Shown here: piece after piece, positions 218 through 25,185 of the stretch
Layout of the letters: every line of letters starts with the position of its first letter
How positions within the stretch are numbered: the first letter of the stretch is position 1
Assembly: GCF_030816965.1 (NCBI RefSeq)
Contig: NZ_JAUSYQ010000002.1
Span: 4,809,501 to 4,873,500, forward strand
Direction of reading: 5' to 3'
Source of the DNA: Streptomyces canus
Lineage (GTDB): Bacteria; Actinomycetota; Actinomycetes; Streptomycetales; Streptomycetaceae
Length of the DNA stretch: 64,000 nt
The notes under the pieces: model-generated
Told to the model about the DNA's origin: nothing
Seen by the model: only the letters and a program-made list of their open reading frames with translations
The model's database searches: none
Program-made: the position numbers and the translations under genes

Positions 218-244
218 GAGAGCCCCTCCCGGGGAATCGCACGT

Positions 245-264
245 GCCCGGCCCACAACCAGCGG
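245..264 (-). promoter_or_regulatory. late leader element copy 1
   Basis: Minus-strand copy of CCGCTGGTTGTGGGCCGGGC, 27 nt before the start at 217. A TAACCT box begins 16 nt upstream of the element, so a transcript would start just before it. No consensus -35 is visible. Confidence 0.7.
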
Positions 265-277
265 CTACCCGCAGAGG

Positions 278-772
278 TTAGCTGGCCGGTTCACCACTCG
301 CAGTGACGTGCACCTGCACCCCCGCCCCAGCGGGCAGCAACGGCAGCAGGCCCAGGCCGAGAAGCGGCTGCGTCCGCCACACGCGGACCATCGCGCACTC
401 GCCGGTCACCTGCTCCAGGGTCACCGTCACCGTGTGGTCGTCGCCCGGGTGAGGATCCACGGGCAGTGCGCTGATCACCGGGGCTTCTGCGAACGGCTCG
501 GCGTACGTCCAGGTGGCGCGGCCGTCAGCGGCCGTCGTGAGGACTGCGGCGGCGGGTGCCGCGCCCCGTGGTCCGGGCGGCCCCGGCACACCCTGTTCCC
601 CCGGCGGTCCCGGCACCCCCGGGACACCCTGCTCACCTTGCAGCCCCTGGTCGCCTTGGCGCCCACGTCGGCCCGGCTTCCGAGACAGCGTCCTCGACTG
701 GCGGTTCAGGTCGCGCAGGACGCCGCCCATGGGGTCCAGGTTGCGCCGCGCTGCGGATCCTCGTATCGCCAT
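278..772 (-). CDS. collagen-like tail fibre protein
   Basis: 164 residues. The start ATG overlaps the stop of the upstream gene (ATGA at 772), so translation is probably coupled. After a basic N-terminal stretch (MAIRGSAARRNLDP) there is a run of Gly-X-Y triplets at roughly residues 35-65 (GDQGLQGEQGVPGVPGPPGE), the hallmark of a trimeric collagen helix. A beta-rich C-terminal domain of about 85 residues follows (ATWTYAEPF to VQVHVTAS). Phage collagen-like proteins usually form trimeric stalks carrying a C-terminal binding head. Its place beside the Gp37-like gene and the tail-tip gene supports a side-fibre role in adsorption. The receptor is unknown. Confidence 0.7.
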   Translation of the reverse strand: MAIRGSAARRNLDPMGGVLRDLNRQSRTLSRKPGRRGRQGDQGLQGEQGVPGVPGPPGEQGVPGPPGPRGAAPAAAVLTTAADGRATWTYAEPFAEAPVISALPVDPHPGDDHTVTVTLEQVTGECAMVRVWRTQPLLGLGLLPLLPAGAGVQVHVTASGEPAS

Positions 773-1797
773 CAGTCCCCCAGATCGCTGCTCAGCGGCG
801 CAAGGGTGACCTGGACACTCTCGCCGTCTCCGTCCTCCGACACCTTCACGCCGCCGATCTTCAACCGCTGCCGCAGCGGCCGGCATGTCGCCGCGGTGGT
901 GACGTCCACACACCAGCCCGGCACGAGCCTGGCCACGTCCACCGCAGCCTCCGGCGACAGGGTCACCTCGTCGGAACTAAGGAACACCGGCACCGGGTAC
1001 GCCGACGCACGCTTCGACCGCGCCGCCGACGCCCCCGAGGCACTCGTCGTCACCGAGGTCTCCTCCACGCTGCGCTCGAGCAGCCCGTAGTAGGAATCCA
1101 TACCGCCCGAGACGCCCTTGACACCGCTGTCTTCGTCGCCGTGCACGATGTAGCGAGTCACGAGCGCCGAGCCGTCCTCGGCGACGACCAGGCCCTCGGG
1201 GAAGTCGACGTCCGTGAGCGTGCCGACGCTCGCGTCCCAGTCCTCCGGCATGAGGACGATCGTTGAGCCGATGGCCGTGTAGTCGAGGCCGGTATCCGCG
1301 AGATCGCGGAGGTGGTCGCCGCTCTGCCCGATGTCCTCGGTGTACTGCCGTCCGCCCTCCACACCGGAGCGCCCGAGGATGTCCACGGTATGGCCCGGGT
1401 CATCCGGCGCGAACGCGTCCTCGATCAGCCAGCTCGCGATGTCGGTGAGGTCGGAGCCGTCGAACACGATCGACTCGTGCGGAACGCGCCGGTCAAGCCA
1501 CACCAGAATGTCGGAGGCCCACAGCTCCACCTTCCCGAACGACCACTCGGCCTGGATGATCGGCCCCTCCCACACGGTGACACCGTCGCGGGCAAGGACA
1601 AGCTTGTGACGCCACGTGCGCACCTTGCCGAGCTGTGCGCAGCAGTCGCCGTCCGGGTTGATGACGACGTGCGCCGTGCTCACGTCGTCCAGGATCCTCG
1701 TCCAGTCCACGGACACCAGCGTGTCCGCCGGCGTCACCACCGCTCCGCCCCGATCCACGATGTAGGCCGAGTGGACGCCACACCCTGCTGAAGACAA
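772..1797 (-). CDS. siphovirus Gp37-like minor tail protein
   Basis: About 341 residues from a TTG at 1797, the first in-frame start after the leader element, with a G-rich ribosome site just upstream. The frame is open further upstream but would have to translate through that element. The segment WTRILDDVSTAHVVINP followed by WRHKLVLARDGVTVWEGPI and WLDRRV matches the ReqiPepy6 Gp37-like family of siphoviral tail proteins (PF14594 type). These act at the tail tip or baseplate. The middle (about 140-200) has a region typical of the family (DIASWLIEDAF, DLADTGLDYTAIGSTIVLMP). It ends in an ATGA overlap with the collagen-like gene. The start codon is less certain than the family call. Confidence 0.75.
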   Translation of the reverse strand: MSSAGCGVHSAYIVDRGGAVVTPADTLVSVDWTRILDDVSTAHVVINPDGDCCAQLGKVRTWRHKLVLARDGVTVWEGPIIQAEWSFGKVELWASDILVWLDRRVPHESIVFDGSDLTDIASWLIEDAFAPDDPGHTVDILGRSGVEGGRQYTEDIGQSGDHLRDLADTGLDYTAIGSTIVLMPEDWDASVGTLTDVDFPEGLVVAEDGSALVTRYIVHGDEDSGVKGVSGGMDSYYGLLERSVEETSVTTSASGASAARSKRASAYPVPVFLSSDEVTLSPEAAVDVARLVPGWCVDVTTAATCRPLRQRLKIGGVKVSEDGDGESVQVTLAPLSSDLGD

Positions 1798-1820
1798 CGG
1801 GCCCCCTGCGAGAGAAGGAG

Positions 1821-1840
1821 GCCCGGCCCAAAACCAGCGG
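1821..1840 (-). promoter_or_regulatory. late leader element copy 2
   Basis: Minus-strand CCGCTGGTTTTGGGCCGGGC, 23 nt before the proposed TTG start at 1797. A TAGTCT box starts 15 nt upstream. The plus-strand cargo gene at 1950 lies just beyond the promoter. Confidence 0.7.
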
Positions 1841-1949
1841 CACGACGCCAGACTAAACGGCCCGAGCCGGCGGTAAGTCATCAGGCAGAGGGCTGGGGAA
1901 CGGTTGGGCGCTGTGAGACAGGAAGTCGGTCACGGTCCGGGGAGGAACA

Positions 1950-2423
1950 ATGTGGTTCTGGCGGAAGCGGACCAAGAAGAAGCGGCTGACTTCGGTGGGC
2001 GTCTCGCTGACGGGCGTCTCGGCGAACTGGGAGGCTGTGAAGACCGATCGGGGACGGGCCCGGGAGGCCCTGCACCGTCTGGAAGATCATCGGATGCTCT
2101 ACGACGTCTACGAATCGGAGATCGCCGATCAGGTCGTCACTTCGGCTGAGCGTCTGCGGTCCTATCTCAGCGAGCAAATCCCTGAGTGCGAAACTATCGA
2201 ACTGCGGAGCGGTCTTCGGGAGATTCAGGCAGCGGTGCGTCAGTTCCTCACCGGCATGAGCAGCAACCGGGCACGGCGGAACTGGAATCCTTTCTGCAAC
2301 GCATTGCGGCGCCTGCGTAGGCGAGTGGGAACAGCGGTAGTCGAGATCGCTCAGACCTTCGACATCCCCGTGGATGGCGATCTCGCTCGCATCGTTGAAG
2401 CGGGCCGCAGGGCCGATCAGTAG
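1950..2423 (+). CDS. hypothetical cargo protein, plus strand
   Basis: 157 residues, with a good ribosome site (GGGGAGGA) before the ATG. It is basic at the N-terminus (MWFWRKRTKKKRL) and otherwise helical and charged. There is a central heptad-like segment (LRSGLREIQAAVRQFLTGM) and an Arg-rich stretch (NALRRLRRRVGTAVVEI). No signal peptide, membrane helix or known motif is visible. It lies against the direction of all neighbouring tail genes, its end overlaps the end of the next tail gene by 7 bp, and it sits directly upstream of a late promoter. This is the usual layout of a moron (extra prophage gene expressed independently). Function unknown. Confidence 0.7.
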   Translation: MWFWRKRTKKKRLTSVGVSLTGVSANWEAVKTDRGRAREALHRLEDHRMLYDVYESEIADQVVTSAERLRSYLSEQIPECETIELRSGLREIQAAVRQFLTGMSSNRARRNWNPFCNALRRLRRRVGTAVVEIAQTFDIPVDGDLARIVEAGRRADQ

Positions 2424-3757
2424 CCGCGGCCGGTGACCCCGATCGTCAGGCGCGCGTCGTCGGCGGGCGGGTGGATGGCGTCAGTCTCCAGGCAGACGCA
2501 GACCGAGGCGCAGTCGAAGGCCGGCCATGTCGGAGAGGCGCCGCCTGCCCCCCACACACTCGTGCTCGTCTCGCAGTTGCCCCCGCACTCCACAGTGGCG
2601 CGGCCGATCTGCCCGTCCAGCACGAGCGTGCCACCGGCGGGGACGAACCCGACCTCGAACACGGCGAGCGGGTCGCAGCGCTTGCGGTCCGCGATCTCCG
2701 CACACGACAGGTCCCCGTCCTGCTCGGCCCGCTCGTAGAAGGAGATCGTCAGCCGCCGCAGGTCCTCACTCCCGGCGAAGACCGAGATCACAGGCACATC
2801 CGTGCCCCACGCCGGACGGTTGGACAGATCGAGTTCGTAGCACTCCCGGTTCGTGGCGAGCGCCTCACAGAAGCAGGAGGAGGGCACGGCCGGTTGAGGG
2901 GGCGCCGGTGGTGTGCAGAACGGGTCCGCGCACGCGGCCGCCACGTCCGGGCAGCCCGCAAGCCGGCACGACCCATCGGCGCACTCACCCGAGGCGTTCT
3001 GACCGGTGTGCAGGCACCACGTGATGCACTCGGTGTCGTCGTCGGCCGGCAAGTGGACGTCCAGCAGCGGGATCTCGTCCGTCCACGCCCACGGAGTGGC
3101 AGCGACGAGAACGAACTCCACGGTGATGATGTCCGCGCCGATGGAGCACCGCCCGGAGGCGCAGTTGCCGTCGCCGTGCCGGGCCGTGACCGTCGGGCCG
3201 TCCACCAGCGCCACGCGCCGGTAGGTGCGGCGGTGCCGCTCGTTGAATTCGGCTGGTGTTTCCTGTTCGCCGGGGCAGCAGTTGAACATGCTCACGCAGT
3301 CGCCGCCGCACGCGCTGCCGGTGCAGCCTTGCAACGCCTCGGCCAGGAAGTGCAGTCCGTACTCCACGGCGCAGCAGGTGGCGCCGAGGAGGAGGCCAGT
3401 CACGGTGATGGTGCGCGGCTGCACCCGGGCGGGGCCGAGCGCGCCGCCGCCGACAACGGCGTTCGTGACCACCCGCTTCACCGGATAGTCGTCGATGCCA
3501 TCGAAGGAGAGCGGCAGGAACCCGGCGAAGTCGGCGGACTCGGGGACGTCGGGGTCGTACCAGGGTGCGGGGTTGTCCGGGTCGTCGGGTGTCGTGTACG
3601 GCCGGCCGTCCGGGTCGAGGACGTCGGCGGTGAGGGTGTCGCAGCCGCAGATGTCCGGGCCGGAGTCCAGCGGGGAGCCGACGGTCTCGAGGTAGGCGCG
3701 TAGGCGGGCCGTGTTGATGACCTCGATACCGCCTACCTGGAGGAAGTCGGTCAGCAC
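2417..3757 (-). CDS. cysteine-rich phage tail protein (distal-tail position)
   Basis: 446 residues from GTG at 3757, with ribosome site AGGGGTG and leader element copy 3 upstream. It follows the tape measure, the usual place for the distal tail protein. The N-terminal half (VINTARLRAYL, DYPVKRVVTNAVVGGG, RVQPRTITVTGLLLGATCCAVEYGLHFLAEAL) looks like a Dit-type ring protein that begins with a beta domain. The C-terminal half (VISVFAGSEDLRRLTISFYERA to DARLTIGVTG) looks like a beta-sandwich. It is strikingly rich in cysteine (CGCD, CCAVEYG, CTGSACGGDC, FNCCPG, SSCFCEA), as are many virion proteins here. Assignment is by order and fold impression, not by a diagnostic motif. Confidence 0.65.
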   Translation of the reverse strand: MLTDFLQVGGIEVINTARLRAYLETVGSPLDSGPDICGCDTLTADVLDPDGRPYTTPDDPDNPAPWYDPDVPESADFAGFLPLSFDGIDDYPVKRVVTNAVVGGGALGPARVQPRTITVTGLLLGATCCAVEYGLHFLAEALQGCTGSACGGDCVSMFNCCPGEQETPAEFNERHRRTYRRVALVDGPTVTARHGDGNCASGRCSIGADIITVEFVLVAATPWAWTDEIPLLDVHLPADDDTECITWCLHTGQNASGECADGSCRLAGCPDVAAACADPFCTPPAPPQPAVPSSCFCEALATNRECYELDLSNRPAWGTDVPVISVFAGSEDLRRLTISFYERAEQDGDLSCAEIADRKRCDPLAVFEVGFVPAGGTLVLDGQIGRATVECGGNCETSTSVWGAGGASPTWPAFDCASVCVCLETDAIHPPADDARLTIGVTGRGY

Positions 3758-3781
3758 GTGGCACCCCTAATTCGGAGAGGT

Positions 3782-3801
3782 GCCCGGCCCACAACCAGCG
3801 G
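3782..3801 (-). promoter_or_regulatory. late leader element copy 3
   Basis: Minus-strand CCGCTGGTTGTGGGCCGGGC, 24 nt before the GTG at 3757. A TAAGCT box starts 14 nt upstream. Confidence 0.7.
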
Positions 3802-3831
3802 CGTCCCTCAGCTTACGGCCGCCCCACCAGG

Positions 3832-6800
3832 TCACATGCTGTACGTCAGCGCCATGCGGTGCATGACCCGGGCGGCGGTCGTCTCGGCGTCGCCGACCTG
3901 GGAGATGTTGAACACGGGCGCGATGGTGACCCCGCCGTCGCTGCCCGGCGTGGAGGAGGAGCCGTCATTGCCGAGCATCTCGGCCAGACCTGACTGCGCG
4001 GCCAGCTGCCGGGCCCGCTTCGGCTTCGTCAGGGGGATGATCACCTCCGGGCCCGCCTCCCCGACCAGGGCGTGGGTGGGCCCGAGCACGATGCCGCCGT
4101 CCGCGAACGGCAAGTACTTGCGTACGGCCGACGGCAGACCGCTCTTGATGCTCGACATGATCCGCGAGCCGATGTTGCCGAGCGCGCCGGCGATGCGGCC
4201 CGGCAGGCCCGAGAACAGGGACACGATCCCGGAGATCAGCGACGAGACAGCGCCTCGCGCTGCGCCCGCGGCGCTGCTGAACACACCCGCGATACGGGAA
4301 CCCAGGGCGCTGAGGGTCGACACGATCCGGCCTGGCAGGCCGGAGAAGAACGAGACGATCGACGAGCCGAAGGACCGCGCGGCGGACAGGGCGCTCGATC
4401 CGGCCGACCGGAACAACGCGGACAGACGGCTGGGCAGCGCGGCGGCGGCCGATGCGATCCGGCCCGGCAACGACGAGAAGAACGCAGCCGCCGATGACAG
4501 GAACGACGAGATCGCCGAGCGGGCCGAGTTGAACGCCGATGTGAAGACCGACAGCAGCTGCGAGCCCAGCGACGACAGGCCGCTGACGATCCGGCCCGGC
4601 AGCGCGGTGAAGATGAACACGACGGCCGCGATCGCGGTCAGGATCGCGATGCCGACGGCCGCAACGGCCTGCACGAACAGGTCGACGAGCAGGCCCGGCA
4701 GCGCGGCAAGCCCAGACATGATCATTCCGGGTAGTTGGGTGAAGAAGCCGACGACCGTGGTGAAGGCGGTCGTCAGCCACGAACCGATGGTCGTGACGAG
4801 GCCGGTGAAGAACGTCGTGATCGTCGAGCCGAGCGCCGAAAGCCCGGAAACGATCATGCCGGGCAGTTGGGTGATGAACGTGACCGCCGACGTCAGCCCC
4901 GACACGAGCCCGGTCAGTACACCGACGACGCCCTGAATGATCGGGACGACGATATTGATCGCGGCCCACAACGCGAACGCCGCGGCGACCTGGAGCACAG
5001 GCGCGAGGAGTTGGACGATCAGGACGACGAGCGGCGCGAGGGCAGCGACGAGTCCGGCGATCGGAGGCAGGATCGGGATCAGCGCCTGCAAGATCGCGTT
5101 GATCGCGTCGACGATCGGCGGCAGCACCGGCAGCAGAGCGTCAGCGAACGCGGTGTAGACGGGCACCAGTGCGGTCGCCACCTGCACGAGCACGCCGGCC
5201 AGCGTCGACAGCAGCGGGGCGAGCCCGACGAAAATCTGAGCGACAGCCTGCCCGACCCCGGCGGCGAGCGGCGCCATGCCCTGCACGAGCATCCCGAACC
5301 CCTGCGCGATCTGCGGCAACACGGGCATGAGCGCGCCGACCAGCGCCTGAATGATCGGCGTGAACAGCGTCGCCAGGGTCTGCAGAACTGGCGCGAGCGC
5401 CTGCGCCAGGACCGCGACGAGCTGACCGGCGAGCGGCAGCAGCGGGGACAGCGCGGACAGGACCGAGCCGACAGCCGCACCCACGGGCCCGAGGCTCGGC
5501 CCGATGATGGCGAGCCCGTCGGCGAGCGCGGACGCGACAGTCTGGAGGCTCGGCGCGATCGCCGCCAGGGCGGGCCCGAGCGCGTTGATGACCCCGGTGA
5601 TCGCCGGGCCCAGGGTCGAGAAGACCGGCGCGAGGGCGGGAGCGATCTGCCCGATCTGTGTGACGAGCGCGGACAGGATCGGCCCGAGCTGCGCGGCGAT
5701 CGTCGCAACCGTGCGGAAGACGTTCCCGACCGCCTCCTGACCGGCCGCGCTCTGGACGAAGTCACGGAACGCACCCGTGATCGTCTGAAGGTTGTTCAGC
5801 AGCCCGCCGCCTGCGCCGGACGCCGCCGCGAATACCCCCGACACGATCTGCCCGACGTTGGAGGCGATCGCGCCGAGCTGCTGGAAGACACCGACTGCGC
5901 CGCGTACCGCTTCAACCGCGCGGCCCGACGCCGCGAACGCGGACAGGAACGTCCCGAACTGCGCGCCTGCCTGCGCGATTGCGCCGCCGATCTGAGACCC
6001 GAACGCCTGCGAGACGGCCGCGGCGACGTCCAGGAAGCCCTTCGCCAAGGGGGCGACGGCAGCCTGAAGCCCGGCTGCGGCCTGCGTGGTGCCCTGGATG
6101 ATGGCGTGCAGCGGCCCGACAGCCTGCTGCGATGCCGCGAACTTCAGGCCCTCGTCGGCGGCCTGGCCGAACTCGGTCGCCAGTGCGGCGAGCTGCGTCC
6201 GCAGCGGCAGCAGGTTCTTGATCGCCGCGGAGACGTCGTCGGCGAACTGGGCGAAGAACGCCTGCTGAATGGACTGCTGGACCTTCTGCAGCTCCGGCCC
6301 GAGATCCCTTACCGCGGTGACGGCCCGCTGTGCGGCCGGGGCCAGCTTCTCCAGCGCCTCTTCGAACTTGGCGGCGTCACCCGAGAACGCCGCCGACAGG
6401 GCATCGCCGACTCCGAGGACGGCAAGCTGCAGGGTGCCAAGAGCGACCTGGGCCCCGGCCATCGCCGCCGGAAACGCGGCGACGATTCCGGCGGCCGGGG
6501 CGAGAGCGGCCGTGAGCGCGAGGACGCCCTGCGCGGCGCCCGCCGCGGCGATCCCGAGTACGCCAAAGCGGAGCGCCGACGACAGCGCCGTGCCGAGGCG
6601 ACCGGCCACCCCGGACAGCCCGGCCAGGGCCCGCGTGAACCGGTCGTTATCGACGTCGACGTTCGCGTTGACCGTGACGTCGGGCGGCCGGTGAGCCCTG
6701 ATATGGGCGTCGAACCCGTCGAGATCGGGGACGACCCGGATCGAGACTTCTTCGCCGGCGAGCGCGGCCCGAAGCCGCTCGACGAACCCGGTCAGGTCAG

Positions 6801-7074
6801 GCGCGACCGGAATGTTGATCGAGTCGAGGGAGCGCAGCCCGTCCAGGAGCTGCGCATCGAACCGCCGCAGGTCCGGGGTTACCCGGACAGTGACCGCAGC
6901 GGCGTCCAGGCCCCTTTGGATGCTGCGGCGGATCTGCGCGCCGATACCGCGAGTTGCGCGGTTGAGAGCGCGCTGGATCCGGATGCCGAGGTCACGCGCA
7001 TCCGCGACGGCCCCGCTGTCATCGAGGTCGATGCGTATGACCGCGCGGCCGTAGTCCTCGTCCTCGCCGGCCAC
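3832..7074 (-). CDS. tail tape measure protein
   Basis: 1080 residues from GTG at 7074, 28 nt after leader element copy 4. It is the longest tail gene and follows the two-frame chaperones, as expected for the protein that sets tail length. The N-terminal 180 residues hold repeated short modules (VRVTPDLRRFD, IPVAPDLTGFVERLRAAL, IRVVPDLDGFDAHIRAH, VNANVDVDNDRFTRAL). A long Ala/Gly-rich helical body with several hydrophobic stretches follows (about 190-240 and 640-760). The C-terminal part repeats a SGLPGRIxSxLSALGS-like unit. It ends in FADGGIVLGPTHALVGEAGPEVIIPL, a common ending of siphoviral tape measures. It has no recognisable lysozyme or peptidase domain. Confidence 0.92.
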   Translation of the reverse strand: MAGEDEDYGRAVIRIDLDDSGAVADARDLGIRIQRALNRATRGIGAQIRRSIQRGLDAAAVTVRVTPDLRRFDAQLLDGLRSLDSINIPVAPDLTGFVERLRAALAGEEVSIRVVPDLDGFDAHIRAHRPPDVTVNANVDVDNDRFTRALAGLSGVAGRLGTALSSALRFGVLGIAAAGAAQGVLALTAALAPAAGIVAAFPAAMAGAQVALGTLQLAVLGVGDALSAAFSGDAAKFEEALEKLAPAAQRAVTAVRDLGPELQKVQQSIQQAFFAQFADDVSAAIKNLLPLRTQLAALATEFGQAADEGLKFAASQQAVGPLHAIIQGTTQAAAGLQAAVAPLAKGFLDVAAAVSQAFGSQIGGAIAQAGAQFGTFLSAFAASGRAVEAVRGAVGVFQQLGAIASNVGQIVSGVFAAASGAGGGLLNNLQTITGAFRDFVQSAAGQEAVGNVFRTVATIAAQLGPILSALVTQIGQIAPALAPVFSTLGPAITGVINALGPALAAIAPSLQTVASALADGLAIIGPSLGPVGAAVGSVLSALSPLLPLAGQLVAVLAQALAPVLQTLATLFTPIIQALVGALMPVLPQIAQGFGMLVQGMAPLAAGVGQAVAQIFVGLAPLLSTLAGVLVQVATALVPVYTAFADALLPVLPPIVDAINAILQALIPILPPIAGLVAALAPLVVLIVQLLAPVLQVAAAFALWAAINIVVPIIQGVVGVLTGLVSGLTSAVTFITQLPGMIVSGLSALGSTITTFFTGLVTTIGSWLTTAFTTVVGFFTQLPGMIMSGLAALPGLLVDLFVQAVAAVGIAILTAIAAVVFIFTALPGRIVSGLSSLGSQLLSVFTSAFNSARSAISSFLSSAAAFFSSLPGRIASAAAALPSRLSALFRSAGSSALSAARSFGSSIVSFFSGLPGRIVSTLSALGSRIAGVFSSAAGAARGAVSSLISGIVSLFSGLPGRIAGALGNIGSRIMSSIKSGLPSAVRKYLPFADGGIVLGPTHALVGEAGPEVIIPLTKPKRARQLAAQSGLAEMLGNDGSSSTPGSDGGVTIAPVFNISQVGDAETTAARVMHRMALTYSM

Positions 7075-7102
7075 CGGGCAACCCCCGCTTTCGCGTGTGG
7101 TT

Positions 7103-7122
7103 GCCCGGCCCAAAACCAGCGG
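7103..7122 (-). promoter_or_regulatory. late leader element copy 4
   Basis: Minus-strand CCGCTGGTTTTGGGCCGGGC, 28 nt before the GTG at 7074. The upstream box is weaker here (TAGCGG, 16 nt upstream). Confidence 0.65.
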
Positions 7123-7182
7123 CTACAGCAGACCGCTACGGGCCTGCCGTGATCTCCAGACTATCCGGCCCTACCTTCGGAC

Positions 7183-7503
7183 TTATGCTCGCGCGTCCTC
7201 GGCCGCCGCCTGTGCCATCAGCGCACGTGCCTGGCTCGGGTCGATGCGGGCCGCGCTGCGTGGCCATGCCCCTTCGGCCGGTCGACGGCGGGCGCCCTTG
7301 GGCGGGGCATACAGCTCGGCCCGGTTCCGCTGCCGCGCGGCGTCGTCCTCGGCCGCCATGTCCATGGACGCCTCGGCGGCGTTCAGCATTCGCCTCAGCG
7401 GCCAGGTGTGCGGGTCGACGCCCTGGAGGGCGAGACTCCCGTCCCACGCCTCCCAGCCTGCCGCGATGGAGTCGAGGAGGCGGAAGACGACGTAGTAGGG
7501 CGG
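7183..7503 (-). CDS. tail assembly chaperone, downstream (T) frame reached by -1 frameshift
   Basis: This frame has no start at its beginning. It opens after a TAA at 7506-7504 and encodes PPYYVVFRLLDSIAAGWEAW, then DGSLALQGVDPHTWPLRR and a charged tail. It ends at 7183. The aromatic YVVFRLLDSI segment is typical of the second half of actinophage tail chaperones. It is in the -1 frame relative to the upstream chaperone and overlaps it for about 109 nt, the standard GpG/GpGT arrangement. The slip must happen after the TAA. The nearest candidate is CCGCCCT (7503-7497), where CGC CCT could re-pair as CCG CCC. No canonical XXXYYYZ site is seen, so the exact site is inferred. Confidence 0.75.
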   Translation of the reverse strand, partial: PPYYVVFRLLDSIAAGWEAWDGSLALQGVDPHTWPLRRMLNAAEASMDMAAEDDAARQRNRAELYAPPKGARRRPAEGAWPRSAARIDPSQARALMAQAAAEDARA

Positions 7504-7937
7504 TTACCACCACCCCCATACAGCTCGACCACCCATTCGAGGAGTTCGACGATGACGCGCGTCGGCAGGCGGAACGCGTCGACGACACGGGCGCCCTCGT
7601 GCTGCGCCGCGTAGGCCTCGGCCTCGTCCAAGTCAGTGAAGGACTCCAACACGCTGCCGGCCTGGTCCTTGACTTCGAGGCGGAGGAACAGCGCGGCGGA
7701 CTCCTCCTGCATCTGCTTGGCGAGGAACAGGCGCAGCGCTCGTGCGGTGCGGCGGACGTCCTTCGGGTCGGCCTCGGCGAGGTTGTCCAGGTCGATGCCC
7801 TTGGCCTTCTGGGCGTCGCGCAACTCGGCGTACGCGTCCATGAACTCATCGCCCATGACCTCAGGCTGGAACCGCAGCTCGGTTCCACCGATGTCGGCGA
7901 CATGGGGCTCAGTGTGAAGGGCAAAGGTTTTGCGCAC
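7395..7937 (-). CDS. tail assembly chaperone, upstream (G) frame
   Basis: 180 residues from GTG at 7937, with ribosome site GGGGAAG and leader element copy 5 upstream. It is acidic and helical (EVMGDEFMDAYAELRDAQKA, ADPKDVRRTARALRLFLAKQ), with DLDEAEAYAAQHEG and RVIVELLEWVVELYG near the end of the conserved part. A low-complexity Ser/Thr/Arg tail follows, as expected when most ribosomes do not shift. Two chaperone products normally coat the tape measure during tail tube assembly. The position just before the tape measure, with an overlapping -1 frame after it, makes the call firm even without a sequence search. Confidence 0.85.
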   Translation of the reverse strand: MRKTFALHTEPHVADIGGTELRFQPEVMGDEFMDAYAELRDAQKAKGIDLDNLAEADPKDVRRTARALRLFLAKQMQEESAALFLRLEVKDQAGSVLESFTDLDEAEAYAAQHEGARVVDAFRLPTRVIVELLEWVVELYGGGGNRPTTSSSASSTPSRQAGRRGTGVSPSRASTRTPGR

Positions 7938-7965
7938 AGGTCTTCCCCTGGGGTTTCCGCTCCTC

Positions 7966-7985
7966 GCCCGGCCCACAACCAGCGG
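7966..7985 (-). promoter_or_regulatory. late leader element copy 5
   Basis: Minus-strand CCGCTGGTTGTGGGCCGGGC, 28 nt before the GTG at 7937. A TACCCT box starts 16 nt upstream. An overlapping TTGAAC-N16-TATGGC pair is the only copy with a recognisable -35. Confidence 0.7.
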
Positions 7986-8054
7986 CGCACCCCCGAGGGT
8001 AGCCATACCAGCGGAACAGCCTCGTTCAATGGCGCGTTGCGGCAAGATCAGATT

Positions 8055-8912
8055 ATGGATCTACAGGGAGTCGGCGCCCTTGCGGCGGCAGCCGTCGCAG
8101 CGGTGGGCATACCGGCCGCGCTGCTCGTCGGCCGGTGGCAGATGCGTGCGGCCCTGCGGACTGCTGAGACGACTTACCGCGCAGCCCTCGACGCGGTCCG
8201 CGCCGACGCCGCGAACACGCACACACAATGGCAAAGAAGTGCACGAAGGGATGCATACGCCGCATTTCTCTCGACAGCCGGAGACCTGAAGACACGGTCT
8301 ATGCGGCTGCGTTACTTGAACCCTCGCGACGAGGAAGCACATGCGGCTCTGCTAGGTGAACTGGGCGAGTTCAACGTTGCTTTGAATTCACAGCTCCTCA
8401 TAATCAAACTCGAAGGACCTCCAGAAGTCGCTTCGAAAGCGGACTGGTACAGCACACAAGTCCACGCCTATGTGCGCCGCGAGAGGCGCTGCTACGAGGA
8501 GATTCGAGCGTGGACGAAGTTGCTCGATCTGGTCGCCGCACATGACCCCGAGCAGGAAGCTGCCAGGGCTCTCCAAGCAAGCCTCGAAGCACTGGAGAGG
8601 GCTGTCACCGAAAGCAACTTCTCCGGCAGTTATGAAATCGTCGAGATACACGACCACAACGGCGATGAGGATGTTCCAGAGCCGGTCACCACGGCATACC
8701 GGGTAGCCCAGAATGCCTACGCCGACCTACCGAGTGACACGTTCACAGAGAAGGACCATATTGCACTCTTCACCCGCTGCTTTTGGGACGAAGAGAGAAT
8801 CCCTATGCCGCAAGGCTCGCACTTCTACGCCTACATCATGCAGGCGGAGGCCAAATTCATCGCCTCTGCCAGGACGGCTCTGTCGCATTCCGATGTGATC
8901 ACAGACCAGTAG
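8055..8912 (+). CDS. membrane-anchored hypothetical cargo protein, plus strand
   Basis: 285 residues from ATG at 8055. No clear ribosome site precedes it, so the message may be leaderless. One transmembrane helix lies at about residues 5-27 (VGALAAAAVAAVGIPAALLV), followed by a long cytoplasmic helical region (WQMRAALRTAETTYRAAL, HTQWQRSARRDAYAAFLSTA). This resembles a common class of Streptomyces hypothetical proteins with an N-terminal anchor and coiled helices. Codon use is less GC-biased than in the flanking tail genes, and it runs against them. It separates the connector genes from the chaperone genes and looks like a moron. No enzymatic motif was recognised. Confidence 0.75.
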   Translation: MDLQGVGALAAAAVAAVGIPAALLVGRWQMRAALRTAETTYRAALDAVRADAANTHTQWQRSARRDAYAAFLSTAGDLKTRSMRLRYLNPRDEEAHAALLGELGEFNVALNSQLLIIKLEGPPEVASKADWYSTQVHAYVRRERRCYEEIRAWTKLLDLVAAHDPEQEAARALQASLEALERAVTESNFSGSYEIVEIHDHNGDEDVPEPVTTAYRVAQNAYADLPSDTFTEKDHIALFTRCFWDEERIPMPQGSHFYAYIMQAEAKFIASARTALSHSDVITDQ

Positions 8913-8928
8913 GGTCCGAAATCAGGTC

Positions 8929-9895: not shown

Positions 9896-9906
9896 GGTGG
9901 TCCCTT

Positions 9907-10716: not shown

Positions 10717-10719
10717 GGG

Positions 10720-11427
10720 TCAGCGCCTCCCACGCTTCTCGTACCGGCACGGGTCCGGGAACCGTTCGCGGATGAACCGGCCGACGGCGCCGTTGGTGAA
10801 GGAGTCCGGCATGGTCGACAGGAACGGGGAGGCGGGGTCGAACTGAGGGCCGCGGCGGGCGACCTTCACGTCCCGCATCGGTAGGCCGGTGACACCGTTC
10901 AACACCCCGTACACGGTGCGCTTGTGGACGTCGTGGCCCGGCGCGGCCTCCAGTGCCCGCAGCATGCCGTCCTTGTGCACGGGCAGCGGCACATGCAGCT
11001 CGAACGACGTCGGATCCTCGTAGCCCAGGCCGACGAGGAAGGCGTGCGTCTCCCGCATGGCCGCCACGTACGCGGAAGAGCGGGTGCCGTACTGGGCGAA
11101 CACCTCCCGTACCGGGCCGCGGTGGAGCACCGGGAACGGCGACGGCTGCGGGGCCATGACGAAGAAGTCGTCGTTCGCCCACAGGAACGGGTCCGAGACG
11201 TCCGGGTGTTCGCACGCCGCTCGCACCGCGGTGGTGGTGTTGACGTATGCGGGGGTGGTCCGCTGGTGCGTCGGGATGTGCCGGGTGCCGGCCGCCCACC
11301 ATGGCCGGTAGCCGACGATCCAGACATGCCGGTGCGGGAGGTGGGCCGCCCACGAACGCAGCGCGTACCGCAGCTGCTCGTTGTGGGCCCCCTCCCGCAC
11401 CGGAACGACGATGTCCGGCAGCTCCAT
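10720..11427 (-). CDS. Stealth-like sugar-phosphate transferase
   Basis: 235 residues. The ATG at 11427 overlaps the stop of the major tail gene (TAATG), so translation is probably coupled. An upstream GTG at 11454 lacks a better ribosome site. The motif LWANDDFFVM and the earlier IVVPVREGAHNEQLRYALRSW and HVWIVGYRP match the Stealth CR2-type fold of capsular polysaccharide phosphotransferases. The DD pair is the expected catalytic acid pair. A sugar transferase embedded between tail tube and connector genes, together with the GT4 protein at 14.2-16.2 kb, suggests modification of virion proteins or host surface sugars. The acceptor is unknown. Confidence 0.7.
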   Translation of the reverse strand: MELPDIVVPVREGAHNEQLRYALRSWAAHLPHRHVWIVGYRPWWAAGTRHIPTHQRTTPAYVNTTTAVRAACEHPDVSDPFLWANDDFFVMAPQPSPFPVLHRGPVREVFAQYGTRSSAYVAAMRETHAFLVGLGYEDPTSFELHVPLPVHKDGMLRALEAAPGHDVHKRTVYGVLNGVTGLPMRDVKVARRGPQFDPASPFLSTMPDSFTNGAVGRFIRERFPDPCRYEKRGRR

Positions 11428-12125
11428 TACGAAGCGAGAGACATCGAGTCGCACGTCACCGGCGTGTAGTCACACGACGGCTCCGGCGGCGCCACGGTCG
11501 TGAGGAAGGTACGCCGGTGGCAGGACGAGGACAGCGGGGTGAGCATCGGGCCCGGGGTGCCGGCCGCGTCGAGCGGCTGCACGTCGTACGGGCCGACACC
11601 CCACGAGCCGCCCGCCCGGGTGGAGCCGGTGATCTGGAGGGTGACGGCCTCCGACCCGATCTCCAGATCGCCGATGATCCCGTTGGTGACCCACGGCATC
11701 AGCCAGTACAGCCACTGGCCTTCGGCGCCGTCCGCGCACTCCTCGCCCAGGACCTCCGCCCACAGTTCCAGTGCGAAGCCGGTGTTGCACTGGATGGAGC
11801 ACGTGTCGAAGCCGATGGGCGTGCCGTCGTAGCCGAGGAACACCGGGTTGCCGGTGAGGATCTCGACCATCTCCGGGGACACGGAGAACACGTTGAGTTC
11901 CAGGTCCAGCCCGTTGAACGTCGGGCAGCCTCGCTTCGTCCCGCAAACCTTGCCGTTCGCGGCCTTGTAGGTGATGTCGTCGCCGTCGTCCGAGTTGACG
12001 TTCATGGCGAGGGAGCTGAAGCACTCGAAGACGAAGCCGTTGTCTTCGCCGCAGACCGGGTTACCGCACTGGTCGACCCTGGTGATCCGCATGACGTCGG
12101 CGTTGGCGATCAGGGGACAGGACAT
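11427..12125 (-). CDS. major tail tube protein
   Basis: 232 residues from ATG at 12125, with AGGAG upstream and leader element copy 6 28 nt away. The central segment ITYKAANGKVC, then FNGLDLELNVFSVSPEMVEIL and TGNPVFLGYDG, is the usual core of siphoviral major tail proteins. In these a beta-barrel is followed by a 'xDPE-LxLLTG'-like turn. The WLYWLMPWVTNGIIGDLEIG region matches their C-terminal strand. It has 12 cysteines, unusual for a tube protein. It is the first gene of its transcription unit, as fits a highly expressed product. Confidence 0.8.
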   Translation of the reverse strand: MSCPLIANADVMRITRVDQCGNPVCGEDNGFVFECFSSLAMNVNSDDGDDITYKAANGKVCGTKRGCPTFNGLDLELNVFSVSPEMVEILTGNPVFLGYDGTPIGFDTCSIQCNTGFALELWAEVLGEECADGAEGQWLYWLMPWVTNGIIGDLEIGSEAVTLQITGSTRAGGSWGVGPYDVQPLDAAGTPGPMLTPLSSSCHRRTFLTTVAPPEPSCDYTPVTCDSMSLAS

Positions 12126-12153
12126 GCCCAAGGACTCCTGACATCTCGCAGAA

Positions 12154-12173
12154 GTCCGGCCCACAACCAGCGA
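12154..12173 (-). promoter_or_regulatory. late leader element copy 6
   Basis: Minus-strand TCGCTGGTTGTGGGCCGGAC, two changes from the consensus, 28 nt before the ATG at 12125. A TAGACT box starts 14 nt upstream. Confidence 0.65.
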
Positions 12174-12406
12174 CTTAGCACAGTCTAAGACTTGTCCCGT
12201 ACCGCCTGACCAGCTCGGAGCAGCTGCGGCCCTCAAGCACTTGCGCCAGCGCATCGGGGCTGGGTACCCCATCCGATCCGTGGCTGGTGGCTCATTTCTG
12301 GGATGTGCCTTGCGATGAGGTCATGGAGCTTGGCCTACACGACAAGCACCGACTCGTTAGGGATAAAAGGAGTAAAGTATACACATAAACGTTCTAAGGA
12401 GCGGTT
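12174..12406. other. intergenic region with possible gene remnant and plus-strand promoter
   Basis: No intact gene. On the plus strand a short coding-like stretch is visible in one frame (DPWLVAHFWDVPCDEVMELG then LHDKHRLVRDKR, stop at about 12387), with a different frame looking coding just upstream. This may be a degraded C-terminus. Just before the next gene is an AT-rich patch containing TTAGGG and TATACA 15 nt apart, a weak promoter candidate for the plus-strand gene at 12407. Confidence 0.3.
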
Positions 12407-12771: not shown

Positions 12772-12794
12772 TTGATTGCGGCTACTCTTCCGGC

Positions 12795-13205: not shown

Positions 13206-13216
13206 TGCGGCACTAG
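13190..13216. repeat. 27-bp inverted repeat, right arm
   Basis: Perfect reverse complement of 12745-12771. It covers the last codons and TGA of the membrane protein gene. An IS-transposase remnant starts directly after it. Confidence 0.9.
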
Positions 13217-13350: not shown

Positions 13351-13384
13351 TGCGCGAAGCAGCCGATAGCCCGGGAGGGGCCGG

Positions 13385-16194: not shown

Positions 16195-16270
16195 CAGGCG
16201 CTATCCGCCTCGTGGGGGGTGGTCAATTCAGCACGGAGTCCGTGGAACGGCCGGTAGCCGCACCCAGCGC

Positions 16271-16741: not shown

Positions 16742-16744
16742 GGC

Positions 16745-17680
16745 TTAGTCCCAGTCCGTGTAGACATGCTCGGTCCAGTGGAGGAGGAAGTCCGCGCCCG
16801 CGGCCGTGCCGGTGAAGAGGAGGGAGCCGTCCAGCGCGAGGTCATAGGAGTCCCCGTCCACGCCCCACGACAGCGTCACCCCGGCCGGCACGGTGACGTC
16901 GTCCTCGAACGCGGTTGGTGCGCCCCCGTTGCGGGAGCCGGAACCTGCCGCCTGGACTCGTACCGCGCCCGCCAGGACGGTGAGCGTCACGGCCTGAACG
17001 TCCGAGGGGAAGGAGTCGACGTTGCCGCTCGTGGCTGTGCCGGTGAACCGCTTGATGCGCGACCGGACCCGCTGCGTCGGCGTGACCCGGGCATCGGGCG
17101 TGACCTGGACGGTGCACTCCACGATCTGTTCGGGATTCGGCGCGGGCACCGTGGCGCCGGCGTCGTTGGTCCACCGTGTGGTGGTGGTGCCGTCGCAGTC
17201 CACTTCGGTGATGCGGCGATAGAACGTGTCGGGGACCACGACGTCGACCGGGGCGAACGTGATCGTCTCCCCGGTGTCGTTGTCCACGGCGGTGAGGACG
17301 CCGTACTTGGTGCCCGTGGGCGGGAGCGCCCTTGAACGGAGGTGGTAGGCGCACTGGTCCGATACGGTCACCGTCCAGCCGCCCGCGAAGGGGTCCCAGG
17401 TGTTCATGATGGCGGCCAGGTCGGACAGGAGCGGCGTGCCGCACTCGTCCAGGCCGTCATTGAACGGGGCGTGGATGACGTTCCGGCCGTTGATGATCCA
17501 CGACGTGAACTTGAGGTTCGGCCGGTCGCAGACCCCGGTCGGGGTGCCGTTGATGGTCGAGACGCCGCACGGCGTGGTGCCGCTGTTGTCGTAGGAGACG
17601 TACCGGTAGCCGGGGATCTTCCAGCACTCGCTGCTCAGGGTCTGGGGGCAGTCGCCGACTTGGCCTGCGGTGCCGCTCAT
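16745..17680 (-). CDS. virion-associated beta protein with shared C-terminal module
   Basis: 311 residues with ribosome site GGAG 5 nt before the ATG. The N-terminal half (CWKIPGYRYVSYDNSG, WIINGRNVIHAPFNDGLDEC, LAAIMNTWDPFAGGWTVTV) is cysteine-containing and not recognised. A middle segment (DTFYRRITEVDCDGTTTTRW) resembles the FLRR repeat found in the following genes. The C-terminal domain (DDVTVPAGVTLSWGVDGDSY to LLHWTEHV) recurs in the next three upstream genes. It therefore belongs to a paralogous set that shares one C-terminal beta module, perhaps a common virion attachment domain. Confidence 0.6.
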   Translation of the reverse strand: MSGTAGQVGDCPQTLSSECWKIPGYRYVSYDNSGTTPCGVSTINGTPTGVCDRPNLKFTSWIINGRNVIHAPFNDGLDECGTPLLSDLAAIMNTWDPFAGGWTVTVSDQCAYHLRSRALPPTGTKYGVLTAVDNDTGETITFAPVDVVVPDTFYRRITEVDCDGTTTTRWTNDAGATVPAPNPEQIVECTVQVTPDARVTPTQRVRSRIKRFTGTATSGNVDSFPSDVQAVTLTVLAGAVRVQAAGSGSRNGGAPTAFEDDVTVPAGVTLSWGVDGDSYDLALDGSLLFTGTAAGADFLLHWTEHVYTDWD

Positions 17681-17753
17681 CAGTTCTCCGTTCCGTAGGG
17701 ATTCGCAGGGGGCCCGGTGCGGGCGACCGCCTGCCTCCCGCGAGGGCCGTCAG

Positions 17754-17769
17754 GCCTCCCGCGGGAGGC
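17754..17769. terminator. GC hairpin after the 17779 gene
   Basis: Palindrome GCCTCCCGCGGGAGGC just past the stop of the 216-residue gene. There is no U-run. Possible weak terminator or RNA stabiliser. Confidence 0.4.
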
Positions 17770-17778
17770 GTGGGGCTG

Positions 17779-18429
17779 TTACGGCTGGGCGGTCCAAAGG
17801 ACCTGCCACGTCGCCGTGGCCGGGTCGCCGTCGATGGTGATCGTTCCGGTGAGCGCGGAGTCGACCGCGTCACCGTCGACACCCCACGTGAGGGAGCTGC
17901 CGGCCGGGACGGTGAGGGTGCCGTCGGCGGTGGTGATCGTGACGGTGCCGCTGTAGACGAGCAGGGTCACGGACTGCGTGCCCGCGTTCGCGGCCAGGTC
18001 CCAGTTCGTGTTCTGCGTGCCGTGCGGGGTCACGGTCTTCGGCGGGGCGGTGAGCGGGCACTGGCCGACGGTTCCGGCTGGGGTGTAGGCGGTGACCGCG
18101 TCCAGGGTGGTGTCCGTGACGGTGACCGTGCCGTCTTCGGCGATCGCCAGACGGCGCAGGAACGGCGTCACGGTGCCGTCGGCGGCGACGTCGCACAGCT
18201 CGATGACCTCGTAGTCGGTCACCTCGGCCGGGCATACGCCGACGGTGCCCGCCGGGGTGTACGCGGTGATGCCGTCGAGGGCGGTGTCGGCCACGGTCGT
18301 GTTGCCGGTGCTGTCGACGGACACGCGACGCAGGAACGGGGTAGGGGTGCCGTCGGCGGCGACGTCACAGAGGAGTTCGAACTCGCGATCCGGGGCGCTC
18401 GTCGAGATGCTTCCACCGGTACCAGACAT
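17779..18429 (-). CDS. modular Cys-rich virion protein with two FLRR repeats
   Basis: 216 residues from ATG at 18429 with AAGGAG upstream. It contains two adjacent copies of a module of about 50 residues: ELLCDVAADGTPTPFLRR...ALDGITAYTPAGTVGVCP and ELCDVAADGTVTPFLRR...TLDAVTAYTPAGTVGQCP. A C-terminal beta domain follows (LTVPAGSSLTWGVDGDAVDS, ending VLWTAQP) that is shared with its neighbours. The paired cysteines at module ends suggest one disulfide per module. Similar repeats occur in tail or decoration proteins of several unrelated phages. The function is taken to be structural or adhesive. Confidence 0.65.
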   Translation of the reverse strand: MSGTGGSISTSAPDREFELLCDVAADGTPTPFLRRVSVDSTGNTTVADTALDGITAYTPAGTVGVCPAEVTDYEVIELCDVAADGTVTPFLRRLAIAEDGTVTVTDTTLDAVTAYTPAGTVGQCPLTAPPKTVTPHGTQNTNWDLAANAGTQSVTLLVYSGTVTITTADGTLTVPAGSSLTWGVDGDAVDSALTGTITIDGDPATATWQVLWTAQP

Positions 18430-18465
18430 GGCTCTCCTTGCAGGATGGTCGAAACAGGGGCGGGG

Positions 18466-22093: not shown

Positions 22094-22096
22094 CGC

Positions 22097-23436: not shown

Positions 23437-23506
23437 CTGCCTCACCTCCTCTCATCCGGGCAGCCCCGACCGGGCAGATGGCCGGGGCTGCGAACGGTGA
23501 AGGGGG

Positions 23507-25138
23507 TCAGCTGCTGCCGGCGGCGCAGACGAGCTCCAGCTGCGCGCCGGTCGCGCCGTCCGGGCAGACCGGGACGGTGACGAGGCGGGTGTCCACCGAC
23601 CGGTCGACGAGGGTCGAGCACTCCTCAGCGAACAAGGCCGTGTAGTCATTCGTGACAAACTTGGTCGAATCGTGCACGACGCCCAAGTTGACCTCCTCAC
23701 CGCGCCCGATCTGGAGCGACCCGGACGGGTACATGAGGAACCGGACGACGGCGGGCCAGTCGACGGCCGCGTCGGAGCCGCCGATCTCGTCCGGGACGGC
23801 CGGGGACAGGCCGCGCGCGAACTGGACCCGCACCCCGAGCGTGCTGAACACGTCCTGGATGCAGGTCGGGCTCAGGTCACAGATGTTGACGCCGTTCTGC
23901 CGCGCCAGGTCGGTGAGGAACAGGTTGCGGCTCCACCACGGGAACACGACCTCCAGCGCCGTGGTCTCGCAGAGGCTGTGCCGCTCGATGACGTCGGCGG
24001 CCTGGAGGGCGACCGCGCCGTAGATCGCGGACAAGGCGCCGAACGTCGGGGCCAGGGTGACCGGGGTCGCCGTGTTCAGGGCCTGCTGGAACAGGACCTG
24101 CTTCACGCGGATCTCGTGGGCGACCATCGCGTTGCGCAGGTACCAGGCCACCAGCTCCGGGAAGTGCCTTTGGGTCAAGATGCCCGCTTCGAGGCAGACG
24201 CCGATGGCGTCGCAGCGGACCTCTACCGGGTCCGGGCAAGGGATCTTGAAACAGGGTTTCGTGGCACCGCTGATGTCGTCGGCCTCGGTGTGGACCCACG
24301 TCATCGACCCGACGTCCAGGGACAGCGGCTTGTAGTAGCGCAGTCCGCCACGGGCGAGCTGGATTTCGGGGGCGTCCCACAGCATGTCCGGGCAGGCCAC
24401 GCCGGTGATGTCGTACAGCGTTTCGCTGGGCGCGCACCAGCCGCCGGACGCGACGAGTTCACCCTGCGGGAGCCGTCCCTGGTTCTGCGCGGCGATCGCC
24501 ACGGTGGTGCCCTCGGGCGCCGAGCTGGAGTCGGTGACGATCAGCTCGTCCGGGTACGGGTGCCGGTACGAGATGACCTGACCGGTGCCGCCACCAGCGG
24601 TTTTTAGGGCGTTGGCGCGGCTGATGATGCCGGTGACGACCTGCCCGAAGTCGAGCGGTGCGCCTGGGGTGTAGCCGGGGACGTCGACGGCCGCGGTGAT
24701 GTGCGTGCCCGGGGCCGGCGGCTCCGGCAGGACGCGCGGCTGTACGGCCCGCACCGACGCGAGGTTGAGGGCGGGACGCCGCACCATGGCGGCGGACGCC
24801 ACCACCGGCTCCGGGTCGGGCTCCGGCTCGGCCACGGGCTCCTCGACGACGGGCTCTTCCACGGCCGGGGCAGCGTTCGGGTCGTCCCCACGGACCTGCG
24901 CGGCGAGCTGCTCGATCTCCGCAGCGGCAGCCTTCGCGGCGGTGATGCGGTCGTTCTGCTCCGTGCGCATGGCCTCAACAGCGGAGGCCAGCGAGCGGAG
25001 TTCGGTGATGTCCTTCTCGGTGACGAGGCTGGACGTCGCCTTGGCGTCGAAGGCCTGAACGGCGCCCGCAAGGGCAGCAGCAAGCTGCTCGTCGTCCAGG
25101 GCAGTGTGGTCTTCGGGAAGCTCGAACGGCTCGGTCAT
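23507..25138 (-). CDS. major capsid protein with N-terminal scaffold-like domain
   Basis: 543 residues from ATG at 25138, with AGGAG upstream and leader element copy 7 27 nt away. Residues 1-130 are acidic, helical and Pro/Glu-rich (AALAGAVQAFDAKATSSLVT, EEPVVEEPVAEPEPDPEPVV), as in a fused scaffolding or delta domain. The rest is HK97-like: GTGQVISYRHPYPDELIVTD, WVHTEADDISGATKPCFKIP, RHFPELVAWYLRNAMVAHEI spine helix, and VFPWWSRNLFLTDLARQNGV. It ends with TLVDRSVDTRLVTVPVCP. The prohead protease domain in the 28.4-31.8 kb gene would remove the scaffold part. Confidence 0.8.
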   Translation of the reverse strand: MTEPFELPEDHTALDDEQLAAALAGAVQAFDAKATSSLVTEKDITELRSLASAVEAMRTEQNDRITAAKAAAAEIEQLAAQVRGDDPNAAPAVEEPVVEEPVAEPEPDPEPVVASAAMVRRPALNLASVRAVQPRVLPEPPAPGTHITAAVDVPGYTPGAPLDFGQVVTGIISRANALKTAGGGTGQVISYRHPYPDELIVTDSSSAPEGTTVAIAAQNQGRLPQGELVASGGWCAPSETLYDITGVACPDMLWDAPEIQLARGGLRYYKPLSLDVGSMTWVHTEADDISGATKPCFKIPCPDPVEVRCDAIGVCLEAGILTQRHFPELVAWYLRNAMVAHEIRVKQVLFQQALNTATPVTLAPTFGALSAIYGAVALQAADVIERHSLCETTALEVVFPWWSRNLFLTDLARQNGVNICDLSPTCIQDVFSTLGVRVQFARGLSPAVPDEIGGSDAAVDWPAVVRFLMYPSGSLQIGRGEEVNLGVVHDSTKFVTNDYTALFAEECSTLVDRSVDTRLVTVPVCPDGATGAQLELVCAAGSS

Positions 25139-25165
25139 GCCAGATGTCTCCTGTGTGAGCACCTG

Positions 25166-25185
25166 ACACGGCCCTGAACCAGCTG
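25166..25185 (-). promoter_or_regulatory. late leader element copy 7 (diverged)
   Basis: Minus-strand CAGCTGGTTCAGGGCCGTGT, the most diverged copy, 27 nt before the capsid ATG at 25138. A strong TAATAT box starts 16 nt upstream. The capsid unit needs its own promoter because the plus-strand cassette and a terminator separate it from the upstream head genes. Confidence 0.6.

Follow-up and report, generated by a model that had tools for sequence, protein, structure and literature searches.

The operators of the MS2/R17 coat protein and of the T4 RegA and gp43 proteins are small RNA hairpins that lie near a ribosome-binding site and carry conserved bulge and loop bases. Here we describe an element with these same features, a repeated 20-nucleotide (nt) sequence that we term hairpin I, in a 64,000-nt stretch of the Streptomyces canus genome (NCBI RefSeq contig NZ_JAUSYQ010000002.1, positions 4,809,501 to 4,873,500; hereafter 'the window', to which coordinates refer unless another locus is named). 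Unlike those operators, hairpin I lies upstream of the Shine-Dalgarno sequence and not over it, and nine leaders of one prophage share it. Two further kinds of system invite comparison. The boxB hairpin of the lambda nut sites and the lentiviral TAR element are likewise 5'-proximal, with a five-base loop or with bulges separated by single pairs, whereas the present hairpin is tied to the start codon of each gene. Switches that sequester the Shine-Dalgarno sequence are similar in that a stem hiding this sequence competes with an upstream hairpin in part of our leaders, although the second hairpin is not universal here and has no Rfam match. In mode of action, phage operator hairpins and leader switches are probably the nearest kinds.

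Repeats before gene starts have also been described in mycobacteriophages. The start-associated sequences (SAS) of Cluster K are 13 base pairs (bp) long (GGGATAGGAGCCC), contain a Shine-Dalgarno core, typically lie 3-7 bp from the start and occur only in the half of the genome that carries non-structural genes, and little support was found for mRNA hairpins in the extended (ESAS) repeats (PMC3203893). Both they and hairpin I are short asymmetric repeats that precede gene starts, nearly always in one orientation, in a group of actinobacteriophages, and a role in translation initiation was suggested for SAS as it is for the present element (PMC3203893). Hairpin I differs in being 20 nt long, in lying 23-33 nt from the start and in forming a covarying hairpin. 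Its copies precede capsid, tail and tape-measure genes and not a non-structural set, and neither the SAS consensus nor the SAS start distance is found in it. The resemblance is therefore positional only, as had been supposed when the repeat was first noticed. Cluster A stoperators, which are 13-bp sites regulating transcription, are likewise repeated asymmetric sites in phage genomes (PMC3203893), whereas in the present element RNA pairing is conserved and the strong copies that we found lie in leaders.

Hairpin I and its covariation

A pattern scan allowing at most three mismatches to the 20-mer finds six sites in the window (245, 1821, 3782, 7103, 7966 and 12154), all on the minus strand, where 0.07 were expected and none of 100 shuffles attained six. 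A seventh, diverged copy at 25166-25185 on the same strand is matched by a covariance model (E 0.0055) that was built from an alignment already containing this copy. These are the seven minus-strand sites that had been reported in a first-pass annotation, a reading of the window's letters without database searches. Two further copies lie to the left of the window, at about -1792..-1773 and -573..-554, which brings the total for the prophage to nine. From each window copy to the start codon of its gene, as placed by a simple gene caller, the gaps in coordinate order are 27, 23, 24, 28, 28, 28 and 27 nt, in agreement with the 23-28 nt given by that annotation.

Hairpin I consists of six pairs (1-19, 2-18, 4-17, 6-16, 7-15 and 8-14), with bases 3 and 5 bulged on one strand and a five-base loop (positions 9-13) that mostly reads UNUGG, UNAGG or GNUAG. 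To assess this fold we aligned 339 leaders, which together hold 74 distinct elements. They were selected with a core pattern that puts no constraint on positions 1-4, 9-11 and 17-20, and for a similar peptide encoded downstream. Pairs 6-16 and 7-15 are constant and 8-14 is U-G or C-G, while compensatory changes occur in the remaining three, and such paired changes are visible in the leaders of homologous capsid and major tail genes. Among the 74 elements, pair 1-19 is CG in 48, UA in 12, UG in seven, AU in three, GC in two and something else in two; pair 2-18 is CG in 31, UA in 14, UG in 13 and AU in one; and pair 4-17 is CG in 64, AU in four, GC in one, UA in one and other in four. Overall, 95.3% of cells are paired, as against 87.6 ± 0.7% after shuffling, and there are 38 double-sided changes as against 8.8 ± 3.6, a count reached in none of 500 shuffles. 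When the same pairing scheme is slid along the element, only 20-59% of cells pair. About eight elements, which hold the GC and UA versions of pair 4-17, are probable chance matches that were retained in these counts; with them removed, the remaining 66 elements give 97.7% paired (90.8% shuffled) and 32 double changes (8.6 shuffled, with a maximum of 16 in 500 runs).

Phylogenetic contrasts agree with these counts. Trees were made from 47 of 80 capsid and 47 of 64 tail loci, each with the window and Streptomyces phage TurkishDelight added and with near-identical, truncated and distant loci omitted. Over the 49 leaders of the capsid-protein tree, which include a U4-A17 version (L388), pairs 1-19, 2-18 and 4-17 are kept in 48, 48 and 49; each has four independent contrasts, and the partner follows in 3.8, 3.9 and 4.0 of them and never goes the opposite way. 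For the 49 leaders of the major-tail tree the pairs are kept in 49, 47 and 49, and the partner follows in 3.2 of four, 1.7 of three and 2.0 of two contrasts, again never in the opposite direction. Loop positions 9 and 12 also appear linked (U with G in 55 elements, G with A in 12, C with G in three, other in four; n = 74), a linkage resting on very few events. The lowest-energy pairing, 4-18 with 5-17, shows no double change and was dropped in favour of 1-19, 2-18 and 4-17; RNAalifold by itself recovers only three pairs.

The compensatory base changes expected of a structured cis-regulatory RNA are thus present in the leaders, and they contradict the first-pass statement that the element does not fold. 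Judged from these comparisons, hairpin I is an RNA structure and not a bare DNA motif.

Position in the leader and pairing over the Shine-Dalgarno region

Before distances were counted, 31 of 311 element matches without a plausible start codon were removed, as were one duplicate and eight of 280 leaders whose distance fell outside 18-36 nt. A TAnnnT box lies 12-19 nt upstream of the element in 214 of the 271 leaders; it is not there in 47, and 10 have tandem copies. After five of 140 non-redundant leaders with a second copy upstream had been set aside, the box is found at 12-19 nt in 104 of 135, compared with 3.4% of shuffled upstream regions; 19 others have it at 11 or 20-55 nt, and 12 lack it within 60 nt. 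Its usual form is TAnnCT, with C in 82%. A spacing of 14-16 nt, as proposed for all seven window copies, is seen in six of them, the odd one being 7103-7122, where TAGTCT lies 41 nt upstream with a hairpin between; a fixed distance to the promoter is therefore not general. In the 104 aligned non-redundant leaders, which are mostly from relatives, conservation between -36 and -12 of the -10 box does not rise above 0.16 bit anywhere, and the absence of a conserved -35 is to this extent upheld. Transcription would accordingly begin just upstream of the element in most leaders, if these boxes act as promoters.

Ten leaders with a displaced box were examined. In four of these, including the tape-measure leader of the window (z-score -3.5), the stretch separating promoter from element folds better than shuffled sequence, at a z-score of -2 or below; in six it does not. 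In tandem pairs the second copy begins 23-45 nt after the first. Tandem leaders (L278, L298, L433, L437 and other major tail leaders) join versions of the hairpin with different loops; in L278, a GNUAG loop comes first and a UNUGG loop second.

By comparison with the variable or absent TAnnnT box, the distance to the start codon is narrow (23-33 nt in 133 of the 140 non-redundant leaders), and the element thus tracks the start codon more tightly than it tracks the promoter. This behaviour, together with the tolerance of duplication, suits an RNA signal near the ribosome-binding site.

A second, predicted pairing, hairpin II, would join the 3' end of the element to the region before the start codon. 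From the 339 leaders, 10 outside 20-34 nt and seven duplicates were removed, and among the remaining 322, stems of at least six pairs run through positions 18, 19 and 20 in 105, 119 and 125 leaders, respectively. Exchanging the 3' halves between leaders yields averages of 40, 47 and 55, and at most 54, 63 and 80; a thinned set of 84 leaders gives 25, 28 and 31 against 8.4, 11.7 and 13.6. Pairing that would sequester the Shine-Dalgarno sequence is two- to three-fold more frequent than in permuted leaders and is present in about one third of the natural ones. In another thinned set, for which no control was made, 19 of 26 stems have a Shine-Dalgarno-like triplet on the 3' strand. Because positions 17-19 also belong to hairpin I, the two hairpins are alternatives in these leaders. 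Folds of single leaders in the window reach a z-score of -2.5 only at 7103, lie between -1.2 and -1.9 at four others and stand at +0.8 at 7966; the 245 leader, shortened for this calculation, is weak in a separate fold. We rejected hairpin II on its own as an explanation of the element, given that it is not universal among leaders.

Proposed role and rival explanations

We judge, with somewhat better than even confidence, that hairpin I most likely serves in the 5' untranslated regions (UTRs) of late genes to control the initiation of their translation as a group through a trans-acting factor. The repeats, the fold, the covariation, the position before the start codon and the competing pairing in a subset of leaders are observed; from these we infer the transcription starts, the existence and identity of the factor, the translational level and, for leaders with a strong hairpin II, the activating sign. 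According to this model, each late transcript would carry hairpin I in its 5' UTR, mostly 23-33 nt before the start codon, and in roughly one leader in three the 3' strand of this hairpin could serve instead to lengthen hairpin II, by which the Shine-Dalgarno sequence is masked. A factor holding hairpin I would leave bases 17-20 no longer free to lengthen hairpin II, and access of the ribosome would change as a result, giving activation where hairpin II is strong. A bolder version, which we regard as possible and put forward only tentatively, is a regulon-wide switch in which one phage-encoded protein, possibly from the virion module, grips hairpin I in every late leader and, with bases 17-20 held, frees the Shine-Dalgarno sequence from hairpin II, turning on the whole late programme of a dsDNA phage or balancing it against assembly at the level of translation.

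Apart from virion proteins, all that the prophage, TurkishDelight and three Woodruffvirus phages share is a WhiB-like protein and an HNH nuclease. The WhiB-like protein (L487:7456-7812, minus strand; 118 amino acids) has an arginine-rich tail and is homologous to TurkishDelight gp66. Two weak leads for the factor lie in the window. One is a basic protein of 125 amino acids (8929-9306), which looks like a neck or tail-completion protein. The other is the 278-913 product, a tail-side protein with GXX repeats resembling collagen; its arginine-rich N-terminus, a short stretch close to where translation probably starts, is shared with three relatives.

Several observations weigh against translational control through hairpin I. 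The core used for selection partly fixes columns 5-8 and 12-16 of the alignment. Pair 2-18 is unpaired in 15 of the 74 elements, seven of which carry [C/T]G[A/T]C, with a bulge seemingly one base longer. The two to four independent contrasts per covarying position are too thin singly for significance in a sign test. The nearest-neighbour energy of hairpin I is weak (-5.4 to +1.6 kcal/mol in five versions, -2.1 in the commonest), and RNAfold favours other pairings; by analogy, a weak stem with conserved pairing, bulge and loop bases is nonetheless the anatomy of a protein-recognition hairpin. Some two thirds of leaders, those of the 245 and 7966 copies included, have a weak hairpin II or none, and nine of the 21 leaders in which position 19 is not G still have a stem of at least six pairs through that position, which argues against a general switch. 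No RNA-binding protein stands out among the proteins shared by the five compared phages. Finally, the element was not seen before 14 listed distant capsid homologues (at most 36% identity), and it therefore marks one clade.

Among the alternatives, the one that survives best, though we think it unlikely, is a transcription elongation signal of the lambda boxB/nut or HK022 put type, in which a hairpin at the 5' end of the emerging transcript recruits a factor or influences the polymerase directly, and late transcripts then pass pauses or terminators. In 104 of the 135 non-redundant leaders the hairpin does lie close to where the transcript is predicted to begin, tandem copies are tolerated, and the bulged stem with its five-base loop is reminiscent of boxB and of bovine immunodeficiency virus TAR. 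However, the tighter constraint is the distance to the start codon, which antitermination does not need, and many late genes or gene groups have a copy and a promoter of their own. Terminator-like sites number six on both strands of positions 1-18000, compared with 5.0 ± 2.7 in shuffles. A search of Rfam 15 with positions 1-26000 at E values up to 10 gave two unrelated weak matches, neither at an element, and the loci of seven relatives gave none at the gathering score. No N-like protein was found, in an analysis that included no search for boxA.

We are more doubtful still that the hairpin, possibly bound by a protein, is an mRNA stabiliser that shields late messages from RNase E or J, or a processing site that is cut. 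The structure is 5'-proximal and some leaders gain extra hairpins upstream, as this explanation would have it, but mere stabilisation needs neither constant bulge and loop bases nor a set distance to the start codon.

A double-stranded DNA site for a late activator or repressor of the phage, overlapping the transcription start, seems improbable. It would fit an element that adjoins a -10 box without a -35 and has the same orientation in all window copies. WhiB-like proteins can assist promoters without a -35, and the one encoded by all five compared phages could, by analogy, serve such promoters here. Yet a DNA site would not be expected to show compensatory changes within an inverted repeat that is asymmetric and bulged, the spacing to the -10 box varies by up to about 40 bp, and second tandem copies start 23-45 nt after the first. 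The first-pass annotation had suggested either an activator or a signal in the 5' UTR, and the evidence points to the second.

A base-pairing target for ribosomal RNA or a small RNA is very improbable in spite of the very high conservation of the common version, for GGTT and GGCG versions alter the sequence, the window holds little more complementarity to the element than chance would give, and the duplex energy with the 16S and 23S loci of the host and their flanks was matched by 20-80% of 40 shuffled elements in eight tests. An antisense RNA in the window was also considered and rejected: a 14-mer with at most three mismatches on the other strand gave 28 matches in total, against 17.9 expected, seven of which are the element copies themselves.

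Distribution and genomic setting

The leaders of the window are listed in Table 1.

Table 1. Coordinates of hairpin I copies and associated features in the window
Feature	Position	Strand	Context
Hairpin I copy	245..264	-	Leader of tail fibre assembly family gene (phrog_863) with start at 217
-10-like box TAACCT	275..280	-	Upstream of 245 copy
Minor tail protein gene	772..1797	-	phrog_837
Hairpin II, 10 bp, element 3' end paired with Shine-Dalgarno region	1798..1825	-	Predicted fold, z -1.3
Hairpin I copy	1821..1840	-	Leader of minor tail gene, phrog_837, TTG start at 1797
-10-like box TAGTCT	1850..1855	-	Upstream of 1821 copy
phrog_838 gene	2417..3757	-	Minor tail protein according to annotation of TurkishDelight homologue
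Hairpin II over Shine-Dalgarno region	3757..3786	-	Predicted fold, z -1.9
Hairpin I copy	3782..3801	-	Leader of phrog_838 gene, GTG start at 3757
-10-like box TAAGCT	3810..3815	-	Upstream of 3782 copy
Tape measure protein gene	3832..7074	-	PHROG match
Hairpin II over Shine-Dalgarno region (GGGCAACC/GGTTGCCC)	7074..7108	-	Predicted fold, z -2.5
Hairpin I copy	7103..7122	-	Leader of tape-measure gene, GTG start at 7074
Segment with extra hairpin between -10 box and 7103 copy	7123..7151	-	Predicted fold, z -3.5
-10-like box TAGTCT, displaced 41 nt upstream of 7103 copy	7158..7163	-	
Hairpin I copy	7966..7985	-	Leader of TurkishDelight gp26 homologue (annotated tail assembly chaperone), GTG start at 7937
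-10-like box TACCCT	7996..8001	-	Upstream of 7966 copy
Major tail protein gene	11427..12125	-	PHROG match
Hairpin II (GGACTTCTG/CAGGAGTCC) over Shine-Dalgarno region	12132..12157	-	Predicted fold, z -1.5
Hairpin I copy	12154..12173	-	Leader of major tail gene, ATG start at 12125; compensatory U1-A19 pair
-10-like box TAGACT	12182..12187	-	Upstream of 12154 copy
Major capsid protein gene	23507..25138	-	PHROG match (major head)
Hairpin II of capsid leader, predicted, weaker	25138..25168	-	Predicted fold, z -1.2
Diverged hairpin I copy	25166..25185	-	Leader of major capsid gene, ATG start at 25138; compensatory A2-U18 pair
-10-like box TAATAT	25196..25201	-	Upstream of 25166 copy

A search of phage genomes for the element before late genes, which the first-pass annotation had proposed as a check, did reveal copies. 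At E below 0.01 the covariance model, run over 10 sources and the right end of the prophage, finds nine in TurkishDelight and two each in YDN12, Mischief19 and phiSAJS1 (the first 50 kb being scanned for the latter two), all before late genes. In the early regions scanned there is no match at this threshold, the best E at the right end of the prophage being 0.098. The three Woodruffvirus phages have a variant of the element ahead of their major capsid and major tail genes. A 43-nt leader query against INPHARED yielded, besides two entries for the single phage TurkishDelight, just a weak match to one mycobacteriophage, and scans of IMG/VR gave at least 120 matches each for a 15-mer core and for the 20-mer, some of the 15-mer matches sitting, chance-like, in unrelated contigs.

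A homologue of the virion module is encoded by 156 of the 163 loci with a strict leader. As for the other seven, L153, L175 and L195 appear to be chance matches in unrelated bacteria, L205 has the element before a capsid-like start, L188 and L207 are ambiguous, and the last is L105. In L105, around position 10100, an element with a U2-A18 pair precedes a ParB-like gene outside the virion module. Among the loci listed for leader comparison (67 of 80 capsid and 54 of 64 major tail), the element is present in all 53 capsid leaders at 48% protein identity or more and in 53 of 54 major tail leaders. A signal used throughout the host was rejected: an exact 17-mer occurs in 16 of 150 genomes of the genus, with at least four copies in six (the present genome included), which suits prophages and not a host element. 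We conclude that the element is real and that it recurs widely within a single clade of Streptomyces phages and prophages; no description of it was found in the literature searched, mostly openly accessible papers.

The host genome is 10.66 Mb. Two tRNA-Lys(ttt) genes (L015:949-1023 and L487:14968-15043), about 122 kb apart and sharing an identical 3' stretch of 48 bp, bracket the region from about -28550 to +93540 relative to the window. Homologues of the integrase, excisionase, immunity repressor, Cro, exonuclease, RecT-like and WhiB-like genes of TurkishDelight sit between the two tRNA-Lys copies, and the window is thus the middle of a large temperate prophage. Its late genes are ordered much as in that phage. 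A glycosyltransferase-like gene (14218-16122) stands between the capsid and major tail genes, as one does in TurkishDelight too. Further along, 40235-42349 encodes a single protein with a phage DAM-like methylase domain, a LAGLIDADG match just under the Pfam cut-off and a GNAT-like domain, a mixture that suggests an intein or homing insertion, and two very long open reading frames of 2281 and 1256 codons lie at 43695-54141, upstream of the terminase side.

To our knowledge, little is known of how Streptomyces phages control their late genes. With the same covarying hairpin in as many as nine leaders of a phage, the virion genes would have a coordinated post-transcriptional layer of control. 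The natural compensatory variants offer a direct handle for tests, and the hairpin may serve as bait for a putative RNA-binding factor or as a portable expression element for Streptomyces. In annotation, the element can mark the starts of late genes.

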